The notes under the pieces are model-generated. The model was not told the DNA's origin. It ran no database searches and saw only the letters and a list, made by a program, of their open reading frames with translations. The translations under genes and the position numbers were made by a program. 36,648 nt of DNA from Balneolaceae bacterium (GTDB lineage Bacteria > Bacteroidota > Rhodothermia > Balneolales > Balneolaceae): NCBI GenBank assembly GCA_007123715.1, contig SKKO01000176.1, positions 1 to 36,648 of the forward strand, in the 5' to 3' direction. Below are positions 13,976 to 22,960 of this stretch, in pieces (the first letter of the stretch is position 1; each line of letters begins with the position of its first letter).

Positions 13976-15490
13976 TTACATTTCCCATCCGGAGCGATAA
14001 ACCCTGGCAAGAAGTCTATTTGCGTTTTCATCGTTGATAATTTTACCATTTTCAGGATCGAAATCTATTCTTTTGCCGGCCTGCAGGGCAACAGCGCCCA
14101 GGTTCATTGTATCGGTGATGGTTTCGGCGCGAATAAAACTACCCGGAGATTGTCTTCCGGCAAGGATATCATCCACCCAGACATCTCTGCGGCGTTCTAT
14201 CTCCCGGGAATTTATTCTTTCGGTAGCCGGCCGGCTGGCCATTCGGCTTTCTGGAAGCAAGACAGGGTTTTCACCACGAAATCCGCCGAGTATTTTTCCT
14301 TTTGTGCCCACAATCATCAGCCCTTCTTCCGGAATATCTTTTCCTTCTGATTCTAGCTCTTCAGGGGCAAATGGTTTCATGCCTCCATCGTACCATATCA
14401 GGTCGAATTCAGGCAGAGCAGGCTGTTCGGGGAATTTCCATTTAATCATACAGCTTGCGGGGAATGCCACATCATTCACAACCCACTGATATACCTGGTT
14501 AACAGCTTCCCTGGAAGTAGTGCCAAACGCACGAACACTTACAGGGGGCCTGGTGATTATCAGGGTTTCAAAAAGAGGAAAGAGACTGTAATGGCCCATA
14601 TCGGCCACACTGCCACCGCCGAAATCATACCAGCCACGGAAAGTATTGTGAGTGTAGTTGGGATGATAGGGTATATCCGGTACAGGGCCAAGCCATAATT
14701 TCCAGTTAAACCCATCGGGTACAGGAGCATTTCCTTCCGGCCTTTTTGTCCACTGCTCCCAAACGGGCCGATACGACCAGTTATGGATTTCCAGGAGTTC
14801 CCCGATTAACCCTTCGTCCATCCAGGCTTTCATCTGTATGTATTCCGGTCGGTCTGACCATGCCAGGAGATGAGTCATGACACCGGTTTCCCGGGCTTTT
14901 TCGATTACTTTTCTTCCTTCCAGCAGCTTATTGGAAATGGGTTTATGAGTTATTACATGAATTCCTTTTTCCATGGCGGCAATAGATATGGATGCATGCG
15001 TATGGTCTGGTGTCATGATCTTTACGGCATCAAGATCATCTACATCATCAAGCAGTTCACGGAAATCTTCATAAGATGCACAACCCCGGTAATCTCCTGA
15101 AGTTTTATTTTTAGCATAATATCGCTCAACATATTCCCTTCCTGTATCACGTCCGCCGGGGATGCCGGGTATATTTTCCCACCAGGAATCGTCTTTCAGT
15201 ACACTTCTGATATGATTACGAATGCCAAAAGGAGACCAGTCGATATAATCGGTTGAAAATTTATTTACATCACAGACGGCCACAACACGAATATTTGGGT
15301 TTTGCAGAAGGCTGCCCATTTCCCGTAATCCCTGAGTTCCGCACCCGATATTGGCAATGGTTATCTGATCGGAAGGAGGGATATGTCCTGTGCCTGAAAC
15401 CACATGTGAGGGCACAATTGAAAATGCAGCCGCAAACGATGCGGCTGATGCGAGAAACTCCCTCCGGTTAAGTTTATTAGAACTGTCCAT
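13976..15490 (-). CDS. Tat-exported Gfo/Idh/MocA-family oxidoreductase
   Basis: A 504-residue protein. The twin-arginine signal NRREFLASAASFAAAF spans about residues 8–23. The Rossmann nucleotide site ITIANIGCGTQG spans 43–54, and the family lysine-proline motif is HKP at 182–184, in place of the usual EKP. The C-terminal alpha/beta domain contains WGLGPVPD-like WLGPVPDIPYHP and the conserved GGGSVADMGHY. These enzymes oxidise or reduce sugars with a tightly bound NAD(P), and the Tat signal lets the folded holoenzyme cross the membrane. It is the first gene of a two-gene unit with the TIM-barrel protein. The substrate is unknown. Confidence 0.82.
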   Translation of the reverse strand: MDSSNKLNRREFLASAASFAAAFSIVPSHVVSGTGHIPPSDQITIANIGCGTQGLREMGSLLQNPNIRVVAVCDVNKFSTDYIDWSPFGIRNHIRSVLKDDSWWENIPGIPGGRDTGREYVERYYAKNKTSGDYRGCASYEDFRELLDDVDDLDAVKIMTPDHTHASISIAAMEKGIHVITHKPISNKLLEGRKVIEKARETGVMTHLLAWSDRPEYIQMKAWMDEGLIGELLEIHNWSYRPVWEQWTKRPEGNAPVPDGFNWKLWLGPVPDIPYHPNYTHNTFRGWYDFGGGSVADMGHYSLFPLFETLIITRPPVSVRAFGTTSREAVNQVYQWVVNDVAFPASCMIKWKFPEQPALPEFDLIWYDGGMKPFAPEELESEGKDIPEEGLMIVGTKGKILGGFRGENPVLLPESRMASRPATERINSREIERRRDVWVDDILAGRQSPGSFIRAETITDTMNLGAVALQAGKRIDFDPENGKIINDENANRLLARVYRSGWEM

Positions 15491-15588
15491 GAAGGTAATG
15501 TATGGTTAGAGGTAATTTCGAATATCAGAAGTATATAACTTATTCAATATAGAACAGATACCGGAAATCAGCTATTAAATTTTATTAT

Positions 15589-15700
15589 AAGGCAGGAAGT
15601 GTTTAGCCACGAAGGCACGATGACACGAAGGTGCACGAAGTTATTTAATGTCACCTCTTATATAGTGTTGTATGCTTATTGTGCAAAATTAGTAGCTTCC
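15589..15700. repeat. Direct repeat, copy 1 (CCACGAAGGCACGA type)
   Basis: The first 84 bases (15589–15672) match 16070–16153 with a single difference (A/G at 15605/16086). After that the copies diverge but stay recognisable to a shared AG-GCTTCC end. The inside shows degenerate units of about 8 bases built on CACGAAG or CACGATG. Confidence 0.92.
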
Positions 15701-15767
15701 AGTGACGGATTGCAAAGTATGGCGTTTTCAGGCCATTTTTAATGGTTGGCTTAAACATGTTGCCATG

Positions 15768-15824
15768 AACCCCTCGACCAGGTTTCTCATGTTTCCTAAA
15801 ATCCTGGCTCGGGGTTTATTTTTT
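15768..15824. repeat. Inverted repeat with T-rich tail inside the island
   Basis: AACCCC … CCAGG (15768–15782) can pair with CCTGG … GGGGTT (15803–15816), with one small mismatch and a bulge, around a loop of about 20 bases. ATTTTTTG follows on the + strand. No + strand gene precedes it, so a terminator role is doubtful; it may be part of the repeat element. Confidence 0.5.
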
Positions 15825-15906
15825 GAAGCTTATCTATCCGTCAGCTAAAGCAGACGGCAATTGTATCGTATACACTTTGTCTCTCCTTCGATATTCGGTG
15901 TTCTTT

Positions 15907-15984
15907 CCTGCCCTGAAGGGGCGTAAGCACACAGTCCGGTAAAGTGAGCGCAGTGAATGCAAGCGAACATCGCCCCGGGACAGG
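15907..15984. repeat. Long GC-rich hairpin in the repeat island
   Basis: CCTG (15907–15910) pairs with CAGG (15981–15984), and GGGGCG (15918–15923) pairs with CGCCCC (15971–15976). The internal side is also partly complementary, and the loop is 47 bases. A second hairpin lies at 16023–16044 (CCC GAATC GGG core with GCCC/GGGC outside). The bases differ in composition from the AT-richer flanks. Confidence 0.65.
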
Positions 15985-16069
15985 CAAAGCAATAAGTACC
16001 CCCGGGTGATGGTCACGTTAAAGCCCCCACCCGAATCGGGGGGCAAAGAACCGGCTTTGGTTTGAGGAA

Positions 16070-16180
16070 AAGGCAGGAAGTGTTTGGCCACGAAGGCACG
16101 ATGACACGAAGGTGCACGAAGTTATTTAATGTCACCTCTTATATAGTGTTGTACGCTATTTGGGCAAATTAGTGGCTTCC
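16070..16180. repeat. Direct repeat, copy 2 (CCACGAAGGCACGA type)
   Basis: The second copy of the 15589 repeat in the same orientation, about 370 bases after the first one ends. The 84-base core is almost identical, and the 3' part (GCTATTTGGGCAAATTAGTGGCTTCC) has several substitutions and one fewer base. Such conservation without coding content points to recent duplication or to selection on an element. Confidence 0.92.
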
Positions 16181-16285
16181 GAAGGCTTGGCCGTTATTTT
16201 ATTGTTGACACTAGATCAGCCTTTCGTAAGCAACTTATTTCAACAGTATAATGCCCGGTTTTACGGTGTTGGCCGGTGAAATGAT

Positions 16286-16726
16286 TTATACCGTACTCAA
16301 GTTGATGATGCTATTGCCCTGCTTGCTGTCTTCAACCAGCCCTGCGAGTGTTTTATTTTCGAACAGAAACTGTACCTGATGCCTTACTTTCTTGTAGTCT
16401 TCATGGATAGGGCAGGGGTTATCATCGCTGCACTGTTTAAAACCGATGCCACACTTGGTGAAAACGCCCATTCCATCAATGGCGTCAATGATTTCAATGA
16501 GTGAAATGTCTTCCGGTTCGCGCTTTAGCCTGAATCCGCCCGAGGGGCCTTTGGTGGAGACCAGTAAATTTTTTCTAACAAGGATCTGTAAAATTTTACT
16601 CAGAAAGTGCTTTGGGATATTCTGTTCTTCAGCAATCTGTTTGAGGTCGATATTGCGATCTTCATCGTGGTGATAGGCAATATGGAGGATTCCCTGGAGG
16701 GCATAGTGGCATGAGGTGGAGAACAT
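16286..16726 (-). CDS. Rrf2-family transcriptional regulator
   Basis: A 146-residue protein of normal Rrf2 length. The N-terminal winged helix (about residues 1–70) has CHYALQGILHIA, the recognition helix region IPKHFLSKILQILVRKNLL, and the wing STKGPSGGFRLKR. The linker carries Cys92, Cys99 and Cys105 (CGIGFKQCSDDNPC), spaced like the [2Fe-2S] ligands of IscR, NsrR and RsrR-type members. It is therefore probably a redox, NO or iron–sulfur sensor. It lies downstream of complex I and of the cysteine-rich gene at 16846. Its target genes are not known. Confidence 0.88.
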   Translation of the reverse strand: MFSTSCHYALQGILHIAYHHDEDRNIDLKQIAEEQNIPKHFLSKILQILVRKNLLVSTKGPSGGFRLKREPEDISLIEIIDAIDGMGVFTKCGIGFKQCSDDNPCPIHEDYKKVRHQVQFLFENKTLAGLVEDSKQGNSIINLSTV

Positions 16727-20883: not shown

Positions 20884-20911
20884 ATTTCACTTTTCACTTT
20901 TCACTTTTCAC
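20884..20911. repeat. Tandem heptad repeat TTTTCAC ×3 plus a variant
   Basis: Three exact units TTTTCAC (20891–20911) are preceded by one variant ATTTCAC (20884–20890). On the transcribed (−) strand this is GTGAAAA repeated, beginning 13 bases after the nuoL stop. The rest of the 212-base nuoL–nuoM gap is AT-rich and holds no gene. Confidence 0.85.
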
Positions 20912-20923
20912 TATCTCATCATC

Positions 20924-22960
20924 TCACAAGAACAGCACAAACAACACCAGGAAACTGAAAATCACATACACCAGGTAGGTTTGTACTTTGCCCGTCTGAA
21001 TGTGGCTTAAAAGCCCTCCCGCTTTGTTTGCAGTTGAGGCCGTGCCATTTACGAGGCCGTCTACGATATTGGTATCAATCCAGCCGCTTACTTTTGAGAA
21101 TATTAATGTGATTACGGCTGATCCGTTTACAATTCCGTCAATAATATTTTCATCGAACCAGCGAAGCATCTTCATGATAACATGGCTTCCGTTTACAAAT
21201 ACCGTATCGTATATCTCATCGAAATACCATTTGTTAACCGAGCCGGAGTAGAGTACACCAGCACGTTTTGCAAGATCATCCGCGCTCACTTTCTTCCACT
21301 GATATACCGCAAGCGCCATCAATACACCAGCGCCGGCTATCAGGATAGAAAGAAGCATGGCAAAGGAATGAACACTGCTTACAGCTTCATAGAACACAGG
21401 GTATGCTGCGGGCTGCATAAGTTCAGGAACCATACTCAATGGTCGCTCAATGGCTGAGTAAAACCAGCCGGATGAGGCACCGAAGGGATTAAAGCTGTAA
21501 AAGAAAAAGAGTGACAGTGCGGCCAAAATCATCAGTGGAATAGTCATCACTTTGGGTGACTCGGTCACACCTTCAATCATTTTTTCATTAACAGGTTTTC
21601 CGTGGAATGTAAGAATGAGCAGGCGGAACATATAAAATGCGGTGAGCCCGGCTACGAGGAAGCCAATTAGCGGCAGCAGCCAATGACCGTTCAGGGTGCT
21701 GAAAGCAAGGGTTCCTGCAAGGATTTCATCTTTGCTTAAAAATCCTGATGTAAGTGGTATCCCTGAAATAGCCAGCGTAAATATTAAAAATGTCCAGTAT
21801 GTGGCCGGCATTCTGGACTTCAATCCGCCCATATTGCGAATGTCCTGTGCATCGGTGTCATGATCATGTAATTTGTGAAGTGCGGCGTGCATCCCGAAAA
21901 TCACGCTTCCGGCACCAAGAAAAAGGCCTGCCTTAAATGCGGCGTGGGTTACAAGGTGCATGAAGCCGGCAGTATAGGCGCCAACACCAAGTGCCATAAT
22001 CATATACCCAAGCTGGCTGATAGTAGAATAGGCCAGTACTTTTTTAATATCGAATTGTGTGATGGCGATGGTGGCTGCAATGAGTGCCGTTATGGCGCCG
22101 ATATATGCAATGACCAGTAGAGCATCTGCCGTTAACATCGGGAACACACGTGCAACAAGATAAACTCCCGCTGCAACCATTGTGGCAGCATGAATCAGCG
22201 CACTGACTGGTGTAGGGCCTTCCATTGCGTCAGGAAGCCAGACATGGAGCGGGAACTGGGCCGATTTACCAACGGCGCCACAAAAAATCAGGATACCGGC
22301 GGCAGTAAGCCATCCTTCGCTTCCAAATGGCAATTGACCAGCCGAAATGGATTCGAATATTGCTTCAAAGGTAAATGTTGAAAAACTGAGGAACAGGATC
22401 ATGATACCAATAAACATCCCAAAATCACCTACCCTGTTCACGATAAAAGCTTTGTTTGCTGCATTGGATGCTGATTTTTTTTCGTACCAATGGCCGATCA
22501 GCAGGTATGAGCTTATTCCGACCAATTCCCAGAACACATACATCAGCAGGATGTTATTTGTGAGTACGATTCCAAGCATGGAAAACGAAAACAAACCGAG
22601 GTATGCGAAGTAGCGTGAATACCGTACATCATCCTTCATGTAACCCATAGAAAAGTAATGAACCAGGGTACTCACCAGTGTAACCACCACAAGCATTACT
22701 GCGGCAAGATTATCGATCATGATGCCGAATCCGATGGTCTGAGATCCAACTACAACCCAGTCGAACGAACTGCTGATAGATTCTCCAGGATATGCATTGA
22801 GCTTAAAAAGCAGAAGAAATAAAGACAGCAGGAGCGTCAGAGTCATTAGCCCCGCAGCAAGCCAGTCACCCTGACGGGGAAGTCTTTTGCCGAAAAATAT
22901 CAACAGGATAAAAGCCAGTAAAGGCAGCAGCAATATGGTTAATGGTAGTTGTGTGAACAT
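20924..22960 (-). CDS. nuoL: NADH-quinone oxidoreductase subunit L
   Basis: A 678-residue subunit, long enough for the 14-span antiporter core plus the amphipathic lateral helix and final anchor. Marks include Glu145 in YVFWELVGISSYLLIGHWY, Lys232 in GKSAQFPLHVWLPDAMEGP, and the histidine-rich LIHAATMVAAGVYLVAR. The last 100 residues contain the hydrophobic/amphipathic stretch expected of the lateral helix. It forms the distal pump of complex I. The ATG at 22960 follows a 150-base gap after nuoK that holds a small open frame. Confidence 0.96.
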   Translation of the reverse strand: MFTQLPLTILLLPLLAFILLIFFGKRLPRQGDWLAAGLMTLTLLLSLFLLLFKLNAYPGESISSSFDWVVVGSQTIGFGIMIDNLAAVMLVVVTLVSTLVHYFSMGYMKDDVRYSRYFAYLGLFSFSMLGIVLTNNILLMYVFWELVGISSYLLIGHWYEKKSASNAANKAFIVNRVGDFGMFIGIMILFLSFSTFTFEAIFESISAGQLPFGSEGWLTAAGILIFCGAVGKSAQFPLHVWLPDAMEGPTPVSALIHAATMVAAGVYLVARVFPMLTADALLVIAYIGAITALIAATIAITQFDIKKVLAYSTISQLGYMIMALGVGAYTAGFMHLVTHAAFKAGLFLGAGSVIFGMHAALHKLHDHDTDAQDIRNMGGLKSRMPATYWTFLIFTLAISGIPLTSGFLSKDEILAGTLAFSTLNGHWLLPLIGFLVAGLTAFYMFRLLILTFHGKPVNEKMIEGVTESPKVMTIPLMILAALSLFFFYSFNPFGASSGWFYSAIERPLSMVPELMQPAAYPVFYEAVSSVHSFAMLLSILIAGAGVLMALAVYQWKKVSADDLAKRAGVLYSGSVNKWYFDEIYDTVFVNGSHVIMKMLRWFDENIIDGIVNGSAVITLIFSKVSGWIDTNIVDGLVNGTASTANKAGGLLSHIQTGKVQTYLVYVIFSFLVLFVLFL

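Follow-up and report, generated by a model that had tools for sequence, protein, structure and literature searches.

A dispersed-repeat mosaic between two genes

The DNA analysed here (the window) is a stretch of 36,648 nucleotides that makes up one contig (C53) of a Balneolaceae genome (G000; assembly of 3.9 Mb in 390 contigs, 98% complete) and that carries rpoB and a nuoN gene. A block of repeats occupies the intergenic space between a gene for a Gfo/Idh/MocA oxidoreductase and a gene for an Rrf2-type regulator (Table 1). Profiles built from the same genome placed four modules in this block, A, M, B, and C, which follow one another in the order A-M-B-C-A. The initial annotation, made from the sequence of the window, had described two near-identical direct repeats enclosing a long inverted repeat, a palindrome and two GC-rich hairpins, and each of the enclosed structures was located between the outer repeats. 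Elsewhere in the window, at positions 20885 to 20912, four perfect tandem copies of TTTCACT lie just past the stop of a minus-strand frame (20924 to 22960).

Table 1. Features of the repeat block and its flanks (positions in the window)
Feature	Position	Strand	Description	Basis
Gfo/Idh/MocA oxidoreductase gene	13976-15490	-	flanks the repeat block on one side	
Stretch between the parts aligning to G020	15576-16284	.	lone 49-nt P piece (part of A) in G020	length comparison (see text)
Module A, copy 1	15588-15700	+	CACGAAGG-type stretch (P), then TGTCA...-type stretch (D)	repeat comparison, own-genome profiles
Module M	15695-15758	+	spacer common to a few other own-genome loci	5 sequences in model
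Module B	15764-15895	+	two hairpins, including the REP-like palindrome	32 hits across 39 stretches of the own genome, window counted
First hairpin of B	15768-15816	+	AACCCC...GGGGTT stem (long inverted repeat)	two compensatory stem pairs among 28 copies
REP-like palindrome	15838-15857	+	CCGTCAGCTAAAGCAGACGG, A-A stem mismatch, tail CAATTG to 15863	copy counts, RNAalifold
Module C	15902-16010	+	GC-rich dispersed repeat, multicopy in G020 and G017 too	profiles, comparison with relatives
GC-rich hairpin	15911-15920			letters checked
GC-rich hairpin	16024-16043	+	CCCCCACCCGAATCGGGGGG	letters checked
Module A, copy 2	16066-16181	+	sister of copy 1	repeat comparison, own-genome profiles
Rrf2-type regulator gene	16286-16726	-	flanks the repeat block on the other side	

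The block is not a single genomic occurrence, since its repeats are multicopy. A search of the genome with the whole block returned at least 47 matches, itself included (40 of 126 candidates scored), and 39 own-genome stretches (38 fetched and that of the window) contained 27 hits to module A, full or partial, alongside those to module B. The modules are combined differently from place to place: A-M-B and then the latter half of A at two loci (L010 and L011), B and then that half of A at a third (L012), A-B-C at L026, C-A at L028, and B-C-A at a locus (L253) of the congeneric genome G020. At 14 of the 38 fetched stretches a contig ends within about 420 bp of the repeat, so that copies are probably missing from the assembly. 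Of 28 loci of module B, 19 are clear of stop-to-stop frames of at least 90 codons, and the other 9 overlap one of 98 to 133 codons. The block is an accumulation of dispersed, non-autonomous repeats between two genes; it does not form one element, and on the evidence here it is not a structured RNA. As a separate observation, module C of G020 (e.g., at L255 and L259) gave four 173-bp matches to the C of the window with equal scores, which suggests recent amplification in that genome.

Shorter sites in relatives and the outer repeats

The initial annotation had proposed a count of copies and a search for empty sites. Both were carried out, and in two congeneric genomes, G020 and G017, the genes that flank the block are adjacent to each other without A-M-B-C-A between them. 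The space between the matched parts is 190 bp in G020 against 709 bp here, and 32 bp in G017 against 808 bp. At a second locus (L014) a stretch of about 230 bp that holds module B is missing from both relatives, with the flanks abutting, and at L012 the intergenic space is shorter by about 257 bp in G017 and 259 bp in G020, with no match to module B there. At L015, where lengths only were compared, 658 bp in G000 corresponds to about 20 bp in G017 and 468 bp in G020.

Insertions of this kind could be classical miniature inverted-repeat elements (MITEs), which have terminal inverted repeats and target-site duplications and are moved by a DDE transposase. For the block, and for module A in particular, we regard this as unlikely. 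Module A starts with TAGCCAC and ends with GTGGCT, some P copies occur in inverted pairs, and the ends of the insert at L014, ATCAA and ATAAA, form a 5-base near-match, with ATAAA at the junction in G020. The near-match is short and A+T-rich, however, and the relatives are 72 to 85% alike around L014, so that the ends are inexact; chance in A+T-rich DNA and a short target-site duplication cannot be told apart here. Transposition by the single-strand route discussed below would be predicted to leave no target-site duplication, and the near-match, if it is one, therefore counts against that route. Also against MITEs, module B has hairpins without terminal inverted repeats and a palindrome that tracks genes for Y1 transposases.

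Three further observations concern the P stretch of module A. At L278 and L280, CACGAAGG-type stretches form inverted pairs about 100 bp apart and resemble a small inverted-repeat element. On contig C368, two P copies 3.3 kb apart enclose a frame of 925 codons, which we take to encode PEP carboxylase, and for this reason no mobile cargo is evident between them. GxxExxY genes, which we presumed to be associated with the CACGAAGG stretch, were considered as its partner and rejected, as the stretch was found in the fetched DNA at none of three PF13366 loci of the genome (0/3, with up to 6 mismatches allowed).

Alignment of the two outer repeats agreed with the initial description of 84 bases with one difference, about 370 bases apart and decaying to about 112. 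The direct repeats at 15580 to 15687 and 16061 to 16168 are 92% identical over 108 nt with a spacing of 481; within them, 15589 to 15672 and 16070 to 16153 differ at 1 base in 84, and the gap between the repeats of about 112 nt (15589 to 15699 and 16070 to 16181) is about 370 bases. Over the full alignment of the pair there are 7 differences in 110 columns, 6 of which fall in the last 26 columns, after the 84-base stretch. Were the differences spread evenly, so clean a run would be expected with P = 0.0006 as a prefix and P = 0.004 anywhere in the alignment. The boundary is tract-like, which suits gene conversion or recombination. In a comparison of 12 copies (the two of the window and ten others out of the 27 hits to A), the pair in the window was the closest, at 95% identity against a median of 77%. 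The two outer copies are sisters, and they would have originated by local duplication or gene conversion. The earlier suggestion of "recently duplicated ends" thus stands as far as the duplication goes; the outer copies are a dispersed repeat in their own right rather than demonstrated terminal repeats of one element.

The closeness of the A pair would also be expected if a 481-bp unit had recently been duplicated, in tandem or segmentally, to give the whole of A-M-B-C-A without any mobile history. We consider this improbable. Module A alone is duplicated here, whereas M, B, and C are single at this locus and dispersed elsewhere, and for module B the idea is contradicted by its absence from L014 in both relatives with abutting flanks. 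Such a duplication accounts for the A pair and not for the remaining modules.

Module B hairpins and the palindrome

RNAalifold recovered both hairpins of module B in a set of 28 aligned copies, 23 from the own genome (including that of the window) and 5 from G020 and G017. Under the given structure 92% of cells are paired, and 3 of 500 shuffles attained the covariation score. There is hardly any variation in the palindrome stem across these copies, and compensatory change occurs at two pairs of the first stem, a number of pairs changed on both sides that was equalled by 145 of 500 shuffles. The initial annotation had offered a structured noncoding RNA as an alternative to a mobile element, and a noncoding RNA or regulatory leader in which the hairpins form the domains would fit their recovery, the score and a T-rich run after the first hairpin, but this is the least probable of the explanations weighed, and very improbable, given that an Rfam scan of the window at the gathering threshold found a tRNA only and no family at the block, that the folding energy is not below that of shuffles (z = -0.58 for 151 nt and -0.22 for 612 nt), that compensatory pairs are so few while the REP-like stem hardly varies, and that many loci carry the repeat while an orthologous site lacks it. 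Covariation in module B was not read as evidence for a functional RNA because a folded single-stranded DNA substrate would conserve hairpins too.

With up to 3 mismatches allowed, the genome contains 38 copies of the palindrome core with its tail (26 bases), of which 22 are perfect; the reversed control of the core gave none. Its surroundings were compared with those of REPs, in which GTAG stands at the 5' foot of the hairpin. In none of 195 distinct contexts (21 from the own genome, 28 from relatives, and 146 from contigs of other genomes) is there a GTAG or GTGG within 2 nt of either foot. Among 117 distinct flanks picked regardless of the tail, the stem is followed by C or T in 115, next by A in 111 and then by A in 112, with CAAT the commonest flank (66/117). 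This YAA is read on the other strand as TTR at the 5' foot, the position that GTAG has in REPs. The A-A mismatch in the stem is retained in 21/21 own contexts and 24/28 contexts from relatives, the other four of which carry a pairing T. In Escherichia coli REPs, according to the available part of PMC8266576, a conserved stem mismatch is required for activity. Inverted palindrome pairs within 850 bp account for 2 of the 38 copies in G000; in the congener G005 they account for 12 of 19, at most 718 bp apart, and one pair surrounds a gene for TnpA, the Y1 transposase.

The palindrome core with tail was found in 8 of 58 genomes searched, the own genome included, and exact 21-base matches to it were found in at least 113 stretches on contigs of other genomes. 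Among the matches listed most are, by their record titles, from Bacteroidota, and others are from Balneolaceae, Acidobacteria, Ignavibacteriales, a Chloroflexi record, and a planctomycete. Searching the literature for the two literal repeat sequences gave no mention in the sources covered, which mostly exclude subscription journals.

Y1 transposase genes and a REP-type interpretation

Genes of the Y1 (HUH) type accompany the palindrome in other genomes. A Y1-type open reading frame is present at 8 of the 113 palindrome-selected loci listed, within 90 bp of the palindrome at seven and 1.1 kb away at one; seven such loci would be expected under random placement with P of about 1e-5. In G015, G005, and L129 exact inverted pairs of the palindrome bracket the gene. 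At L114 (936 to 1243), from Pedobacter cryotolerans, one exact palindrome and four with 4 mismatches are arrayed at an exact 72-base spacing adjoining a TnpA gene.

The association was also approached from the enzyme. A protein-only search of 244 genomes of the class returned 30 TnpA loci, chosen without regard to the palindrome. Eight of these are close matches, seven full genes at 63 to 100% identity and one broken gene (61%), and the next matches are at 49% or less. A palindrome with up to 5 mismatches in 20 lies within 500 bp of 7 of the 8 close genes (three exact, one with one mismatch, one with three, and two with five; 5/8 at up to 3 mismatches) and of none of the 22 distant ones (Fisher's exact test, 4e-6). 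The close gene that has no such palindrome within 500 bp is L304, from G012, and the palindrome copies of that genome have T in place of the mismatched A. One locus is shared by the palindrome-selected and protein-selected tests, as L084, one of the seven loci with the gene within 90 bp, is the same as L306 of G020. The broken gene, at 45378 to 45811 of contig C4 of G023, has a palindrome of the same type nearby. In a tree, the palindrome-bearing TnpA proteins do not form one clade (3 changes). Within the genus (28 genomes) the palindrome occurs in six genomes and an intact close TnpA in four, all four inside those six (Fisher's exact test, 0.0007, or 0.003 with the broken copy of G023 counted). 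Palindromes can outnumber the enzyme: G005 has 19 palindromes and one close TnpA, and G017 (92% complete) has 16 copies and no close TnpA found.

The motif Y---Q--HH is present in 8/8 close TnpA proteins, one of them broken, and in full in 15 of the 22 distant ones. Two of the enzymes (L129 and L250) were scanned with domain models, and both contain the Pfam Y1_Tnp domain. Against the NCBIfam IS200 model, with a cutoff of 55 bits, L129 scored 65.9 (above) and L250 52.4 (just below), and the RAYT model NF047646 gave the two proteins 40.1 and 28.5 bits against a cutoff of 80. A PDB search with one TnpA returned nothing at E = 0.001. Hairpins were found at 42 of 59 flanks of all 30 TnpA genes compared with 9 of 171 control segments, an enrichment that is overstated because the control is mostly coding DNA, and part of it could be ordinary terminators. 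The same palindrome stands on both sides at a good number of the 30 genes, as judged by eye, which speaks against terminators as the sole cause. Many of the distant Y---Q--HH genes (flanks at L309 to L330) have palindromes that differ from group to group, often with the same one on either side of the gene.

The proposal that the block is a non-autonomous repeat or mobile element is supported by its copy number, by its absence from the orthologous site in two relatives, and by a search for Y1 transposases in the own genome, which found none at E = 1e-3 and none at 1e-15. As the enzyme gene was not found here, the copies are fossils, or their spread preceded its loss, or the assembly lacks the gene. 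Our favored explanation, which we hold to be probable, is that module B belongs to the REP type of non-autonomous elements and was spread in trans by a TnpA resembling those of subclass 1.2, at a hotspot of nested repeats whose outer copies were later duplicated or converted locally. If TnpA(REP) and IS200/IS605 are taken as models, the enzyme would bind the palindrome as folded single-stranded DNA, the same palindrome that flanks the family of Y1 transposases in other genomes, and the short conserved foot beside the hairpin may guide its choice of cut. The enzyme may have moved REP units in trans to exposed intergenic single strands; repeats landing near repeats would then build up the nested arrangement, and local duplication or gene conversion could afterwards have made the two A copies near-identical. 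Against this explanation stand the moderate copy number of the palindrome in this genome, the negative searches for a Y1 gene here and for a close TnpA in G017, the few inverted pairs in G000, the missing GTAG, the close gene at L304 without a palindrome, the locus common to the two association tests, and the failure of the palindrome-bearing TnpA proteins to form one clade. The locus resembles the remains of a tiny parasitic DNA that used borrowed machinery to jump.

Compared with known systems, the repeats can be set beside the REP, BIME, and REPIN sequences of E. coli and Pseudomonas and their RAYT (TnpA-REP) enzymes. Many short intergenic palindromes, an inverted pair flanking a Y1 gene (in relatives and the named genomes), and a mismatch kept in the stem are found in both; inverted doublets, as in BIMEs and REPINs, are common in G005 and nearly absent from G000. 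Unlike REPs, the palindromes lack the 5' GTAG or GTGG and have YAA after the palindrome (TTR on the other strand) instead, and the two enzymes scanned score far under the RAYT cutoff, with none found in the own genome. IS200/IS605 elements likewise have a Y1 transposase, end hairpins, and a single-strand mechanism, which would apply here by inference; in contrast to them, the palindromes outnumber the close enzyme genes in the genus, and the dispersed unit is the hairpin and not the gene. CGTC-tagged REPs are palindromic too, contain CGTC, and have been reported from Bacteroidetes. In the available part of their description (Di Nocera et al. 2013, PMC3733652), however, their CGTC is an unpaired tag and they have no linked transposase, whereas the palindrome studied here has its CGTC paired to GACG within the stem and flanks a transposase gene.

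The enzymes resemble TnpA-Y1 subclass 1.2, which was described as close to IS200 transposases and, in the available portion of the survey, as having neither IS properties nor REPs (Quentin et al. 2018, PMC6006769). The likeness lies in the Y---Q--HH signature, the Y1_Tnp domain, and occurrence in Bacteroidetes, and membership is assigned here by motif. As far as that portion of the survey goes, its table lists no REP for the subclass, and its automatic REP search demanded GTAG or GTGG near the hairpin foot, whereas the likely members found here have flanking palindromes without either. The palindromes are thus a concrete candidate for the DNA partner of subclass 1.2 TnpA, for which the same portion names none, and the enrichment of hairpins at such genes suggests that the pairing may be general and would be missed by searches keyed to GTAG. 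The link between palindrome and TnpA is undescribed in the literature examined, which mostly excludes subscription journals. We tentatively suggest, with less confidence than we attach to the account of the locus, that Bacteroidota, Balneolota, and some Acidobacteriota have a separate REP system, lacking GTAG and having a TTR foot, in which each palindrome type has its own Y---Q--HH TnpA of subclass 1.2, and that in this genome the REPs may have outlived their enzyme.
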